From contig JAAYPG010000104.1 in NCBI GenBank assembly GCA_012519905.1, forward strand, positions 1 to 37,628: a stretch of DNA of 37,628 bases, written 5' to 3'. This DNA is from Clostridiales bacterium. Its GTDB lineage: Bacteria > Bacillota > Clostridia > Lachnospirales > Lachnospiraceae. Position 1 is the first letter of the stretch; each line of letters opens with the position of its first letter. The position numbers and the translations under genes are program-made. Below are positions 29,694 through 37,628 of the stretch, piece by piece. The notes under the pieces were generated by a model that was not told the origin of the DNA, did not search any database, and saw only the letters and a program-made list of their open reading frames with translations.

Positions 29694-29801
29694 ATGATTA
29701 ATTGGCATAACAAGAGAACTAAAAAAATCATATCAACAATTATAATTATACTTGTTGTTCTTTCAATGACTGTGCCGACAATACTAAGTATATTTAATTA
29801 A
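29694..29801 (+). CDS. Small single-span membrane peptide (35 aa)
   Basis: A 35-codon frame starts at ATG 29694 with AGAAGGTG 6-8 bases upstream. It encodes a basic, hydrophilic N-terminus (MINWHNKRTKKI) and one membrane span (about 13-33, STIIIILVVLSMTVPTILS), then stops after IFN. The layout resembles the small Prli42-type stressosome anchor proteins of Firmicutes, which also have a Lys-rich start and one span, but the resemblance is only general. It stands between the divergent TPR-like gene and the vanW-family leader, with no partner in its transcript. Confidence 0.6.
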   Translation: MINWHNKRTKKIISTIIIILVVLSMTVPTILSIFN

Positions 29802-29843: not shown

Positions 29844-29871
29844 TTGAATCTTCTTGAGATTGTGTTACAAT
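29844..29871 (+). promoter_or_regulatory. Sigma-A-like promoter of the vanW-family operon with TTCTTGA direct repeat
   Basis: TTGAAT (29844-29849), 16 bases, TACAAT (29866-29871). TTCTTGA occurs at 29841-29847 and again at 29851-29857, a direct repeat with a 10-bp period overlapping the -35. OmpR-family regulators often bind such repeats. The leader would be about 145 bases long and includes both 50-bp repeats. Confidence 0.55.
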
Positions 29872-29910
29872 AGGGGAACATAATTAATATAGAATGATTC
29901 TAACAAAAAA

Positions 29911-30010
29911 GTGAGGAGAAATCCTCCGTTGTCAGTAGATTTAAAAAAATAATATAATGAGTGAGGATAAATCCTCCGTTGTTAGTAATGTTAAAAAAAT
30001 AATATATTGA
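29911..30010 (+). repeat. Two 50-bp tandem repeats with hairpin and anti-Shine-Dalgarno arm in the vanW leader
   Basis: Units 29911-29960 and 29961-30010 are near-identical. Each holds a GAGGA/TCCTC hairpin (29913-29926 and 29963-29976) followed by CGTTGT and an AT-rich part. The sequence next to the second unit (GAGGAGGATT, from 30009) resembles the start of a third, truncated unit and is the ribosome binding site of the next gene. AATCCTCC at 29970-29977 is fully complementary to GGAGGATT at 30011-30018 in that site. The same hairpin with CGTTGT occurs before the response regulator at the right end. Confidence 0.85.
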
Positions 30011-30021
30011 GGAGGATTAGT

Positions 30022-31575
30022 ATGGAAAGGCGCGTGACACATTACTACGCACTAATAATTTTGACCATTTCCTTTGTGTTATTTGGAAATGACTTATGTG
30101 TATATGCGGCCAATAGCAATACCATAACTAAGGGTGTTTTTATAGACGAGGTTGATGTTAGCGGCTTGACAGCTAAAGAGGCCGAGAATAAAGTTAATGA
30201 ATTTGTTAACGAGCTGAGAGAAAGAGAAATATCAATCAGGGTAGGCGAAAACACTGTAACAGCTAAGCTTGGAGATTTAGGTTATGAACATAAGATAAAT
30301 GATGTCATAGATAAAGCGTTTGAGCTTGGAACTACTGGCAACTTAATTAAAAGATATAAGGATTTAAAGGATATTGCCCAAGGGGGTATTAGTTATCCTA
30401 TTGAATTTACGATAAATAGTAATCATATTAGAGAGTTTGTATCCACTAAGGCATCAGAGTTTAATGTCGAGCCAGTAAATGCTACTGTATCACGGAGTAA
30501 TGGTAAAATGATCTATACAGATCATATCCTGGGCAGAAGAGTAGACGTAGAGACTACAGTTTCAGATATAGTAGATACAATATTAAATTCCTGGAATAGA
30601 AATGATATCGTGTTGGATGCACATATGGAGGATGTTGCCCCTATATATACTAGGGATGTGGTTGAGCTATGTAATACTCTGTTGGGTAGTTTTAGTACTG
30701 AGTACGCGGATTCTGCTGAAGGGCGGGCCGCAAATCTTGCCAATGGGGCGAGGCTAATCAATAATGCTCTTATTTATCCCGGAGAGGTATTTTCTGCTTA
30801 TGAATATCTGGCGCCTTTTAACGGGAAAAACGGTTATTATGTAGCTGGGGCATATTCTAAGGGTAAGGTTATTGATAGTGTAGGTGGAGGAGCATGTCAG
30901 GTTACCACCACTTTGTATAATGCAGTCTTAAAGGCGGAATTGGAGATAGTAGAGCGACAGGCTCATTCTATGACCATAAGCTATGTAGATTTGTCTAGAG
31001 ATGCAGCCATAGCAGGTACCTATAAGGACTTAAAATTTAGGAATAACACTGACGTTCCTATCTTAATACAGGCATATACAAAGGGTCGCAAGATCACATT
31101 TAATATATGGGGACATGAAACAAGAGATGTTGACAATAGAAGAATTGAGTTCGAGACTAGAGTATTATCTGAGACGCCACCACCTGCTGATGTGATTGAA
31201 GAAGATCCAACAAAACCTGTAACCTATAGAAAGGTTACACAGTCAGCTCATACAGGATATAAGGCTGAACTATATAAGGTGATATATGAAAATGGTGTAG
31301 AAGTGGGCCGGACTCTTATAAATAAAAGTAATTATATACCTGCTCCTAGATATATTACTGTTGGAACCAAAGAGGTTGAAACTGTCCCTAACATTCCTGA
31401 AGGTTCTGATATAGAAGATGATGCTAATAATGAGCAGAAAGTTGGCAGCAATTTGGAAGATAATCAAGAAGATTTAAGTATACAAGAAGATAATTTGACG
31501 AATCCTGATGAGCAAGTCCAAGGGGACATCTATTGGGATTCAGAATGGGATGAGGAAGGTCCGGAGGATGATTAA
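30022..31575 (+). CDS. VanW-family protein with G5 domain
   Basis: I start at ATG 30022 (GAGGAGGA 5 bases upstream), giving 517 aa; the TTG at 30007 lies before the binding site itself. An N-terminal hydrophobic segment (about 8-28) ends in a signal-like YAANS. Then come a putative peptidoglycan-binding 4 domain (about 35-200), the VanW domain with GGGACQVTTTLYNA (Cys292) and the HSMTISYVDLSRDAAI segment, a G5 domain (about 385-455), and a very acidic, probably disordered tail of about 60 residues. The protein is expected at the cell surface, bound to the wall. VanW proteins have no proven reaction; they occur with some vancomycin resistance clusters, but no resistance gene is here. It starts an operon with the AIR-synthase-like gene 24 bp downstream. 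Confidence 0.85.
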   Translation: MERRVTHYYALIILTISFVLFGNDLCVYAANSNTITKGVFIDEVDVSGLTAKEAENKVNEFVNELREREISIRVGENTVTAKLGDLGYEHKINDVIDKAFELGTTGNLIKRYKDLKDIAQGGISYPIEFTINSNHIREFVSTKASEFNVEPVNATVSRSNGKMIYTDHILGRRVDVETTVSDIVDTILNSWNRNDIVLDAHMEDVAPIYTRDVVELCNTLLGSFSTEYADSAEGRAANLANGARLINNALIYPGEVFSAYEYLAPFNGKNGYYVAGAYSKGKVIDSVGGGACQVTTTLYNAVLKAELEIVERQAHSMTISYVDLSRDAAIAGTYKDLKFRNNTDVPILIQAYTKGRKITFNIWGHETRDVDNRRIEFETRVLSETPPPADVIEEDPTKPVTYRKVTQSAHTGYKAELYKVIYENGVEVGRTLINKSNYIPAPRYITVGTKEVETVPNIPEGSDIEDDANNEQKVGSNLEDNQEDLSIQEDNLTNPDEQVQGDIYWDSEWDEEGPEDD

Positions 31576-36854: not shown

Positions 36855-37571
36855 TTATTTTCTGAGGTTTCGCACCTCGAATTTATAGCCTATTCCCCAT
36901 ACAGTAGAAAGGCTCCATGCATTATGGTCCTTTATCTTTTCTCTAAGCCTTTTAATATGTACATCAACTGTTCTTGTGTCACCATAATATTCATAGCCCC
37001 AGATATGATCAAGAAGCTGCTCTCTTGTAAAGACCTGATTGGGATTAGAAGCTAGAAAATAAAATAGCTCTAGCTCCTTAGGTGGCATATCTATATTTTT
37101 GCCATAATATTGTACGGAGTAGTTACTAATGTTAATAATCAAATCAGGATATTTAACGTATTCACCGGTAAGCTTTTCGCCTTCTTCTTCATCGACGGTG
37201 GGATTAAAACGTCTTAGTACAGCCCGAACTCTTGCTACCAACTCCTTGGAATCAAAGGGCTTTATGACATAATCATCTGCTCCTAGCTCTAGGCCAAGAA
37301 CCTTATCAAAGATTTCGCCCTTGGCTGATAGCATTATAATAGGCACCTTAGATACTTTGCGTATCTCACGGCATACCTCATACCCATCAATACCCGGTAA
37401 CATAAGATCCAATAATATTAGGTCTGGTCTATAGGATTCAAATTCCCTAATAGCTGCCTCTCCATCATGTACAATCTTTGTATCAAAGCATTCCTTAGTA
37501 AGATATAGGGAGATGAGCTCCGCTATATTCACATCATCATCAACAATAAGTATTTTCTGCTTAGAAATCAT
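36855..37571 (-). CDS. OmpR/PhoB-family response regulator
   Basis: The 238-aa protein has an N-terminal receiver domain (acidic pocket Asp11-Asp13, phospho-acceptor Asp55 in LLDLMLPG, Lys in VIKPFD) and a C-terminal winged helix DNA-binding domain (about 140-236, with PPKELELFYFLASNPNQVFTREQLLDHIWG seen as ELELFYFLASNP then DHIWGYEY, and RTVDVHIKRLREKI). AGGAGG lies 6 bases before the ATG. It is the first gene of the operon with the kinase. Its leader contains the same hairpin plus CGTTGT found before the vanW-family gene, with the SD-complementary arm 32 bases away. The operon's promoter is beyond the right edge. Confidence 0.95.
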   Translation of the reverse strand: MISKQKILIVDDDVNIAELISLYLTKECFDTKIVHDGEAAIREFESYRPDLILLDLMLPGIDGYEVCREIRKVSKVPIIMLSAKGEIFDKVLGLELGADDYVIKPFDSKELVARVRAVLRRFNPTVDEEEGEKLTGEYVKYPDLIINISNYSVQYYGKNIDMPPKELELFYFLASNPNQVFTREQLLDHIWGYEYYGDTRTVDVHIKRLREKIKDHNAWSLSTVWGIGYKFEVRNLRK

Positions 37572-37573
37572 CC

Positions 37574-37628
37574 AAACCTCCTAGATAAATAATAAAGTAT
37601 TGTATCAAACAACGGAGGTTTTACCTCC
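37574..37628 (-). promoter_or_regulatory. Response regulator leader: hairpin with anti-Shine-Dalgarno arm
   Basis: On the minus strand GGAGGT-AAA-ACCTCC forms a perfect 6-bp hairpin (complement of 37614-37628), followed by CGTTGT. AAACCTCC (complement of 37614-37621) is also fully complementary to GGAGGTTT (complement of 37574-37581), the gene's own ribosome binding site 32 bases downstream. The two pairings exclude each other. The window ends at the hairpin's first base. Confidence 0.7.

Follow-up and report, generated by a model that had tools for sequence, protein, structure and literature searches.

Tandem leader repeats with an arm complementary to the Shine–Dalgarno sequence of the following gene form a dispersed family in Herbinix

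The window analysed here, a 37,628-nt stretch of DNA from a Lachnospiraceae genome, carries two direct repeats in front of a gene for a VanW-like protein. An earlier note on this DNA read the repeats as an undescribed translational switch, in which the 3′ arm of a small hairpin can pair with, and close, the Shine–Dalgarno (SD) sequence of the gene. The locus raises the question of whether these repeats act on a ribosome binding site as RNA, act on transcription as DNA, or have spread without regulating anything.

The repeats in front of vanW and their family

The relevant features of the window are:

29910–29959, + strand: unit 1 of the tandem array, a direct repeat, 88% identical to unit 2
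29960–30009, + strand: unit 2 of the tandem array, a direct repeat; covariance model match at 29963–30021, 61.7 bits
29913–29917, + strand: 5′ arm of unit 1, GAGGA, an upstream SD copy (from the sequence)
29920–29927, + strand: anti-SD arm of unit 1, AATCCTCC, also a full complement of the gene SD (from the sequence)
29963–29967, + strand: 5′ arm of unit 2, GAGGA (from the sequence and family composition)
29970–29977, + strand: anti-SD arm of unit 2, AATCCTCC (from family-wide covariation with the gene SD)
29977–29996, + strand: conserved CGTTRTAWGTWRTNAAAA-like motif after the arm (from column composition, 155 elements)
30011–30018, + strand: gene SD, GGAGGATT, exact complement of the anti-SD arm (from the sequence and covarying positions)
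30022–31575, + strand: VanW-like protein gene (reading frame; Pfam PF12229, PF04294 and PF07501)
29844–29871, + strand: predicted vanW promoter, TTGAAT-N16-TACAAT, upstream of the repeats (consensus match)
37571–37628, − strand: second family element, in the leader of a response-regulator gene (covariance model, 55.6 bits, E 2.5e-13)

Direct reading and repeat finders agree to the base with the two 50-nt repeats that the earlier note had described, each with a GAGGA/TCCTC hairpin followed by CGTTGT. Specifically, residues 29913–29917 pair with 29922–29926 in unit 1, and residues 29963–29967 pair with 29972–29976 in unit 2. The sequence likewise bears out that the arm at 29970–29977 is fully complementary to the SD at 30011–30018, and that the SD region resembles the start of a third repeat: TRF assigns 2.2 copies to the array and ends them at 30017, inside the SD. 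The CGTTRTAWGTWRTNAAAA-like motif is positioned in the loop of the long-range hairpin. The 5′ arm reads TGAGGA in the window and GGAGG in most family members. The ATG start codon at 30022 lies shortly 3′ of the SD, and the open reading frame extends, in the reading-frame list, to an upstream TTG at 30007. The putative product has peptidoglycan-binding, VanW and G5 domains (Pfam PG_binding_4, VanW and G5). A TG precedes the −10 element of the predicted promoter. Upstream of that promoter, an open reading frame of 35 codons at 29694–29801, read by eye, looks like the gene of a small conserved membrane protein; similar short open reading frames are visible by eye in the leaders of several relatives.

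The second element of the window precedes a gene at 36858–37571 (− strand) with Response_reg and Trans_reg_C domains (Pfam), and is truncated by the end of the contig. Contig C153 of the same genome opens with a unit (L031) that shares the spacer of this element, and the two contigs are therefore probably joined through an array.

The window repeats are one copy of a large family of leader elements that stand in front of dozens of unrelated genes. In the genome of the window (G000; 2,591,608 bases in 197 contigs), the pattern GGAGG-N2-8-CCTCCGT occurs at 56 places and the reversed pattern at 0, so the count is far above chance; at least 2 of the 56 places (contigs C72 and C77) resemble chance matches within genes. 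Each unit comprises an upstream SD copy (A) and an anti-SD arm (B), which is followed by a conserved CGTTRTAWGTWRTNAAAA motif and, some 31 nt on from the arm, by the gene SD (C) and the start codon. The consensus of 155 elements reads GGAGG, 5–6 nt (for example TAAAA or ATAAAT), CCTCC, GTTRTAWGTWRTNAAAA, an AT-rich stretch, a single adenine, GGAGG and the start codon; 5′ of the first arm, conservation drops. CGT and GGAGG are 29–31 nt apart in 142 of 159 elements, and the unit period is 47–50 nt in 76 of 83. Single units account for 89 of the 159 arrays, and the spacers of adjacent units are nearly identical (median 0.93, 80 pairs).

The element set was derived from 202 collected arrays, of which 43 were excluded because GGAGG, a start and an open reading frame were not found within 75 nt, leaving 159; later counts (155, 152 and 139) lose further rows to spacer length or context. 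Reading of the 43 excluded arrays identifies 22 as cut by contig ends or masked letters, 10 as chance gene matches or second readings of palindromes, and 11 as genuine elements whose SD is a variant, whose next unit has decayed or whose start the script missed. Most of the 159 elements belong to genomes G000, G008, G013, G014 and G032, and further Herbinix genomes contribute one each; the set from G032, which has about 108 pattern places, is incomplete, and counts from it are lower bounds. Elements are located within about 60 nt of the ends of nine contigs of G000 (C7, C21, C41, C48, C117, C124, C141, C153 and C167), and tandem arrays seem to break the assembly, so that true unit numbers may be underestimated.

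The main search pattern required GAGG and CCTCC, so that the core pairing is enforced by the search, while positions 6–8 are free. A looser search of 778 kb from two genomes used CGTT[AG], the spacing, GGAGG and an open reading frame, and required neither A nor B (beyond the last C base of the arm). This search returned 24 places, and their sequences carry both the anti-SD arm and the 5′ arm at 23, the remaining place, at a response-regulator-like gene, having neither; four other 5-mers used as a control gave 7 places together. A, B and C thus occur together.

An SD copy in every unit found (partly through the search pattern, the loose search being the check without that requirement), and two to four units in 70 of 159 arrays, would also fit a translation enhancer or standby site, in which upstream SD copies load or hold 30S subunits and the anti-SD arm merely spaces or protects. 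We consider this explanation unlikely, as the anti-SD arm follows the gene SD beyond the core (see below).

Covariation between the anti-SD arm and the gene SD

Pairing of the anti-SD arm with the gene SD is well supported by covariation (159 elements). In particular, Watson–Crick pairs are present in 150 elements at position 6 (shuffled mean 78, maximum 105), in 150 at position 7 (mean 104, maximum 116) and in 141 at position 8 (mean 128, maximum 137). Pairing of the same arm with the local 5′ arm is found at position 6 in 133 elements (shuffled mean 73, maximum 93), and at position 7 in 63 (mean 65), which is no covariation. When one element is taken per orthologue group, with groups defined crudely by at least 6 shared 4-mers in the first 60 residues, the arm–SD counts at positions 6–8 are 91, 92 and 87 of 98 (shuffled maxima 67, 78 and 84), and the local hairpin is paired in 85 of 98 at position 6 and 39 of 98 at position 7 (mean 42). 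Mutual information across 39 columns ranks the arm–SD pair B6–C6 first, B7–C7 second and the local pair at position 6 third. Where local and long pairing are in conflict, elements keep the long one in 21 of 26 cases (position 6) and in 89 of 93 (position 7). Arm–SD pairing at position 6 is broken in 8 of 155 elements; the vanW element of G032 (L352) has a mismatch at this position.

An alignment of 66 rows (A1; the window and 65 of 88 listed references) has 94.7% of the cells of the eight-pair helix paired. Its covariation score, to which, as to the covariance model R1, some rows contribute that are internal array units with the next copy rather than the gene's SD downstream, is 0.186, whereas shuffled partners give 0.052 and slid ones no more than 0.073. 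Of five measures, two do not rise above the shuffles, namely pairs with a change in both strands and further pair types.

In upstream units, the arm agrees with the gene SD in 69 of 80 cases at position 7 and 72 of 80 at position 8, and with the next SD copy in 28 and 3 of 80, a comparison that is not independent because the units are copies of each other. This preference argues against the standby site, as does the covariation between arm and gene SD at the two positions.

Some orthologous leaders have undergone compensatory changes. Of 40 gene groups with elements in at least two places, 16 contain a paired change on both sides at one of positions 6–8. At position 6, 21 orthologue pairs have changed on both sides and kept the pairing, versus 6 one-sided changes; at position 7, the corresponding numbers are 7 and 5, with 1 unpaired change on both sides; and at position 8 they are 5 and 11. 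The strand complementary to the SD is thus conserved by compensatory change, as in an SD-sequestering RNA, weakly so at position 8. Specifically, in the leaders of GH94-type genes in G013 (L342) and G032 (L347), whose spacers are 90% similar, the arm–SD pair changes between A-T and T-A, and the 5′ arm is GGAGGT in both despite this change. Similar compensation is present in the serS pair L032/L302 (81%) and in the pair L260/L349 (73%), in front of a gene named serC-like by eye. Spacers exceed the 95th percentile of unrelated ones in 4 of 28 compensated and 13 of 50 uncompensated pairs, and because so few compensated pairs do so, the remaining ones may be separate arrivals. The triple, in which the 5′ arm is also paired in both members, holds in 8 of the 21 pairs at position 6, so the local hairpin is favoured too, less strictly than the arm–SD pairing.

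The search of the genome and its relatives, the covariance model and the arm–SD covariation test that the earlier note had proposed have in this way yielded a large family and strong covariation, with compensatory changes in some orthologous leaders, in support of the arm–SD pairing. Homologous leaders that keep CGTTGT with no compensatory change in the SD, which the earlier note had named as evidence against a switch, were looked for, and the opposite was found.

Position in leaders and computed folds

Promoter prediction and gene context support a location of the elements in transcribed leaders, as expected for an SD-sequestering RNA. Among 20 vanW leaders from the genus, 19 have a promoter-like TTG[ACT]...TA[CA]AAT; in the remaining one, the reading frame could not be located. 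This site lies upstream of the repeats, and the prediction does not bear out a transcription start below them, the other finding that would have spoken against a switch. Most vanW leaders have no element. The distance from the promoter to a conserved codon is 289, 310 and 306 in the carriers G000, G008 and G032, and 206–226 in most vanW leaders without an element; longer distances are found also in G004 (264), G003 (251), G009 (293) and G013 (366, partly masked).

Across 139 elements, 46 start at most 40 nt after the stop of an upstream same-strand open reading frame of at least 100 aa; the distance is 41–100 nt for 17, 101–200 nt for 20 and 201–400 nt for 10, and 46 have no such frame within 400 nt. 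In the serS leader of G032, a T-box (Rfam RF00230; L514, 2105–2302, − strand) is located upstream of the element at 1949–2008, with a decayed unit, recognized by eye, between the two. The serS leader of G000 (L513), whose contig begins just upstream, has by eye a T-box end and a terminator, and gives no Rfam match. Among 11 serS leaders read by eye, 3 have the element, 1 has a decayed form and 7 have none. At the Rfam gathering score, the window returns a tRNA only, and six element loci return two T-box matches only.

These positions bear on the DNA operator that the earlier note had held to be the main alternative. Unit 1 of the window does contain TTGTCA-N18-TATAAT, an 11 of 12 match to promoter hexamers, but this is not a property of the family: at least 9 of 12 hexamer positions match in 5 of 98 units, as in shuffled spacers (mean 5.1). 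Copies close behind upstream stops, and a copy after a T-box, are not where operators or promoters would be expected, and an operator gives no ground for covariation with the SD. We regard an operator repeat, or a promoter built into the repeat, as very improbable.

In the energy model, the two alternative folds are nearly equal. Across 152 elements, the median is −10.5 kcal/mol for the arm–SD hairpin (8 bp in 100 elements) and −9.3 kcal/mol for the local hairpin (6 bp in 118), and at 37 °C the predicted probability exceeds 0.5 for the local fold in 93 elements and for the long fold in 53. With a slightly shorter downstream context, the mean probability of the long fold is 0.40 at 37 °C and 0.55 at 55 °C. 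For the last unit of the window folded alone, the predicted arm–SD pairing is 0.91 or 0.65, depending on the length folded; for both units together, it is 0.27 for the arm of unit 2, with the arm of unit 1 taking the SD at 0.38. For the whole window leader at 37 °C, arm–SD pairing is 0.10, arm–SD pairing from unit 1 is 0.08, local pairing is 0.58 and the SD is open at 0.36; the fold of this leader has a z-score of −2.5 relative to shuffles, 4 of 200 of which are as good. The calculations make a two-state device plausible; for the window, the state predicted to prevail depends on the length folded.

An RNA thermometer was considered as well. Mean SD openness in the energy model (152 elements) is 0.35 at 20 °C, 0.32 at 37 °C, 0.28 at 55 and 60 °C and 0.34 at 75 °C; fold populations shift slowly with temperature, SD openness barely changes and no sharp response is predicted, and on the energy model this candidate was tentatively set aside.

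The reading that we favour, and hold to be on balance the probable one, is that of an mRNA leader element, dispersed and amplified in tandem, in which three parts would compete and thereby act on translation: the upstream SD copy (A), the anti-SD arm (B) and the gene's own SD (C) about 31 nt on. In the on state, a small hairpin of 6 bp between A and B would leave C free. In the off state, B would pair with C in an 8-bp hairpin, whose loop of about 33 nt would hold the conserved motif. Because the two folds are close in predicted energy, the ribosome site would be partly closed, and a factor or the occupancy by 30S subunits could tip the element either way. We infer that B–C pairing lowers translation, that A serves as the release arm and that the balance is regulated; an effect on translation would follow from what is established about SD hiding. 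Of the translational switch originally proposed, the arm–SD pairing is retained and the restriction to vanW is not, since the repeat family stands in front of unrelated genes throughout the genome.

Downstream genes, distribution and known systems

Thirty genes of G000 with an element were scanned, 20 against NCBIfam and 10 against Pfam; the assignments are best matches, several of them below the curated cut-off. They comprise dGTPase, L-arabinose isomerase, HisS, SerS, CysS, a MetG-like protein, FlgC, FliE, DegV, a Xer-type recombinase, an S41 protease, IspF, PurM, MurD, PyrF, a flavorubredoxin-like protein, ABC and MFS transporters, response regulators, rubrerythrin, cytidine deaminase, HIT, GH94 and VanW; L020, L021 and L288 have no domain match in these scans. 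Inspection reveals no functional theme among the 30 genes beyond four aminoacyl-tRNA synthetases, and a missing theme is unusual for a regulon. As triggers, we favour free 30S subunits that would bind A, or a protein that would bind the conserved loop. An antisense sRNA to the motif was rejected: with one complement pattern (at most 3 mismatches), there are 51 + 61 places versus 103 + 98 for the reversed control, which is no enrichment.

The carriers belong to the genus Herbinix (Lachnospiraceae). A stricter pattern with CGTTRT matches 38 times in G000, 49 in G008, 59 in G013, 17 in G014 and 65 in G032, and at most 4 times in each of the rest; any match occurs in 13 of 61 genomes, all in one genus of 28, and the reversed control gives 7 matches over the 61 genomes, so single matches mean little. 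The covariance model R1 (59 positions) returns 57, 76, 82, 30 and 111 matches in the same five genomes, all lower bounds because 150 candidates were scored per genome. At least 30 matches are present in these five of 34 genus genomes, and at least one match at E up to 0.001 in 27 of 34. The next highest counts are in G029 (17) and G023 (10), with weaker best scores, followed by G012 and G003 (7 each), and may be chance matches or reflect forms that are older or divergent. G006 lacks any match at E 0.001. The family is rare or absent in the other genomes of Herbinix. In an order sample, R1 matches occur in 2 of 392 genomes, both of Herbinix, and in a phylum sample in 2 of 398, the second with a single match at E 7e-5 (G499); these two scans applied stricter filters and scored 14 and 13 candidates per genome, respectively, so that weak or few copies can be missed.

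The pattern is present in at least 120 stretches of viral contigs. The 80 viral loci listed have one pattern match each, and the 14 of them scored with the model give none better than E 0.2. From a collection of genome contigs, 24 of 117 stretches were scored, and only L052, from a Herbinix metagenome-assembled genome, and L070, whose contig has the same length as G032:C68, are better than E 0.2. On these scored stretches, carriage by phage or plasmid was tentatively set aside.

The distribution, the empty orthologous leaders and the near-identical tandem units also suggest a dispersing repeat. At the extreme, the family would be a selfish or neutral repeat that enters at ribosome binding sites and amplifies in tandem with no regulation, the complementarity being a by-product of copying (inverted copying of the local SD, or terminal inverted repeats), and each copy being tolerated because it leaves a working SD beside the start codon. 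The restriction of high copy number to five genomes of one genus, the absence by eye from 7 of 11 serS leaders and most vanW leaders, the near identity of neighbouring spacers and the lack of a functional theme would all be expected of such a repeat. However, the apparently inherited element L342/L347 has undergone a compensatory change with spacer similarity of 90% and its 5′ arm kept; pairing persists though many orthologue spacers are no more alike than unrelated ones; and the spacing is 29–31 nt in 142 of 159 elements. We find a purely selfish repeat rather doubtful. Origin by spread and function by pairing are compatible views, and the leader element acting on translation could have arisen by such spread. 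In a more far-reaching version, which we put forward tentatively and as short of probable, a lineage within Herbinix would have spread one mobile leader element over dozens of genes, with each anti-SD arm tuned to the SD of its host gene, as a sensorless genome-wide switch on a global signal; the signal would be free 30S subunits or one RNA-binding protein at the CGTTRTAWGTWRTNAAAA loop.

SD-hiding leaders have been described for individual genes, mostly together with a sensor. In attenuators of the ermC and cat type and in riboswitch expression platforms, alternative pairing frees or hides the SD, and each is a single leader that senses through a leader peptide or an aptamer. The Herbinix elements share the alternative pairing of the SD and differ in standing before dozens of genes, with copies matched to each gene's own SD; no sensor was identified in them, leader peptides not having been searched systematically. 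BOX elements of Streptococcus pneumoniae and REP/BIME elements are short, stem-forming and modular, with tandem internal units and many copies; to our knowledge, neither kind has a fixed place at the SD in the sense direction, and they are not known to covary with the SD of a neighbouring gene. The Herbinix elements are likewise short, modular and tandem, but are fixed at the SD in sense orientation and covary with it. The T-box (RF00230) is also a cis-acting leader, but is a separate structure, with the Herbinix element lying between it and the gene. The TAACTGA direct repeats of marine Beggiatoaceae are heptamers that bear little likeness to an SD and overlap the place where the ribosome is expected to bind; about 10% of the TAACTGA regions also have an SD (MacGregor 2015, PMC4679880). 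Unlike the Herbinix elements, they are not known to have an anti-SD arm or pairing partner, and the Herbinix unit differs from, and does not belong with, these heptamer arrays.

Literature searches (Herbinix, anti-SD, dispersed or tandem repeat, leader pairing) did not find the element; they covered mostly non-subscription literature and are weak evidence of absence. As far as these searches show, SD sequestration as a working principle is known, and the repeat family, the matching of each arm to its own SD and the genome-wide reach are undescribed. Several related species carry the same SD/anti-SD/SD device in front of genes for synthetases, purine synthesis, the cell wall, flagella and transport, and the genome sequences themselves reveal its covariation. 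Should the device control translation, it would amount to a natural experiment on the conversion of a dispersed repeat into a global layer of translational control; should it have no such role, it would be a repeat directed at ribosome binding sites, likewise new to us.

Decayed units are present at L515 2769–2847 (serS of G014), at L197 3061–3118 (vanW of G008), and in L239 and L368. They carry, for example, CTCC, CTCT or CCTCCC where CCTCCGT is expected, and their sequences suggest turnover of the element family.
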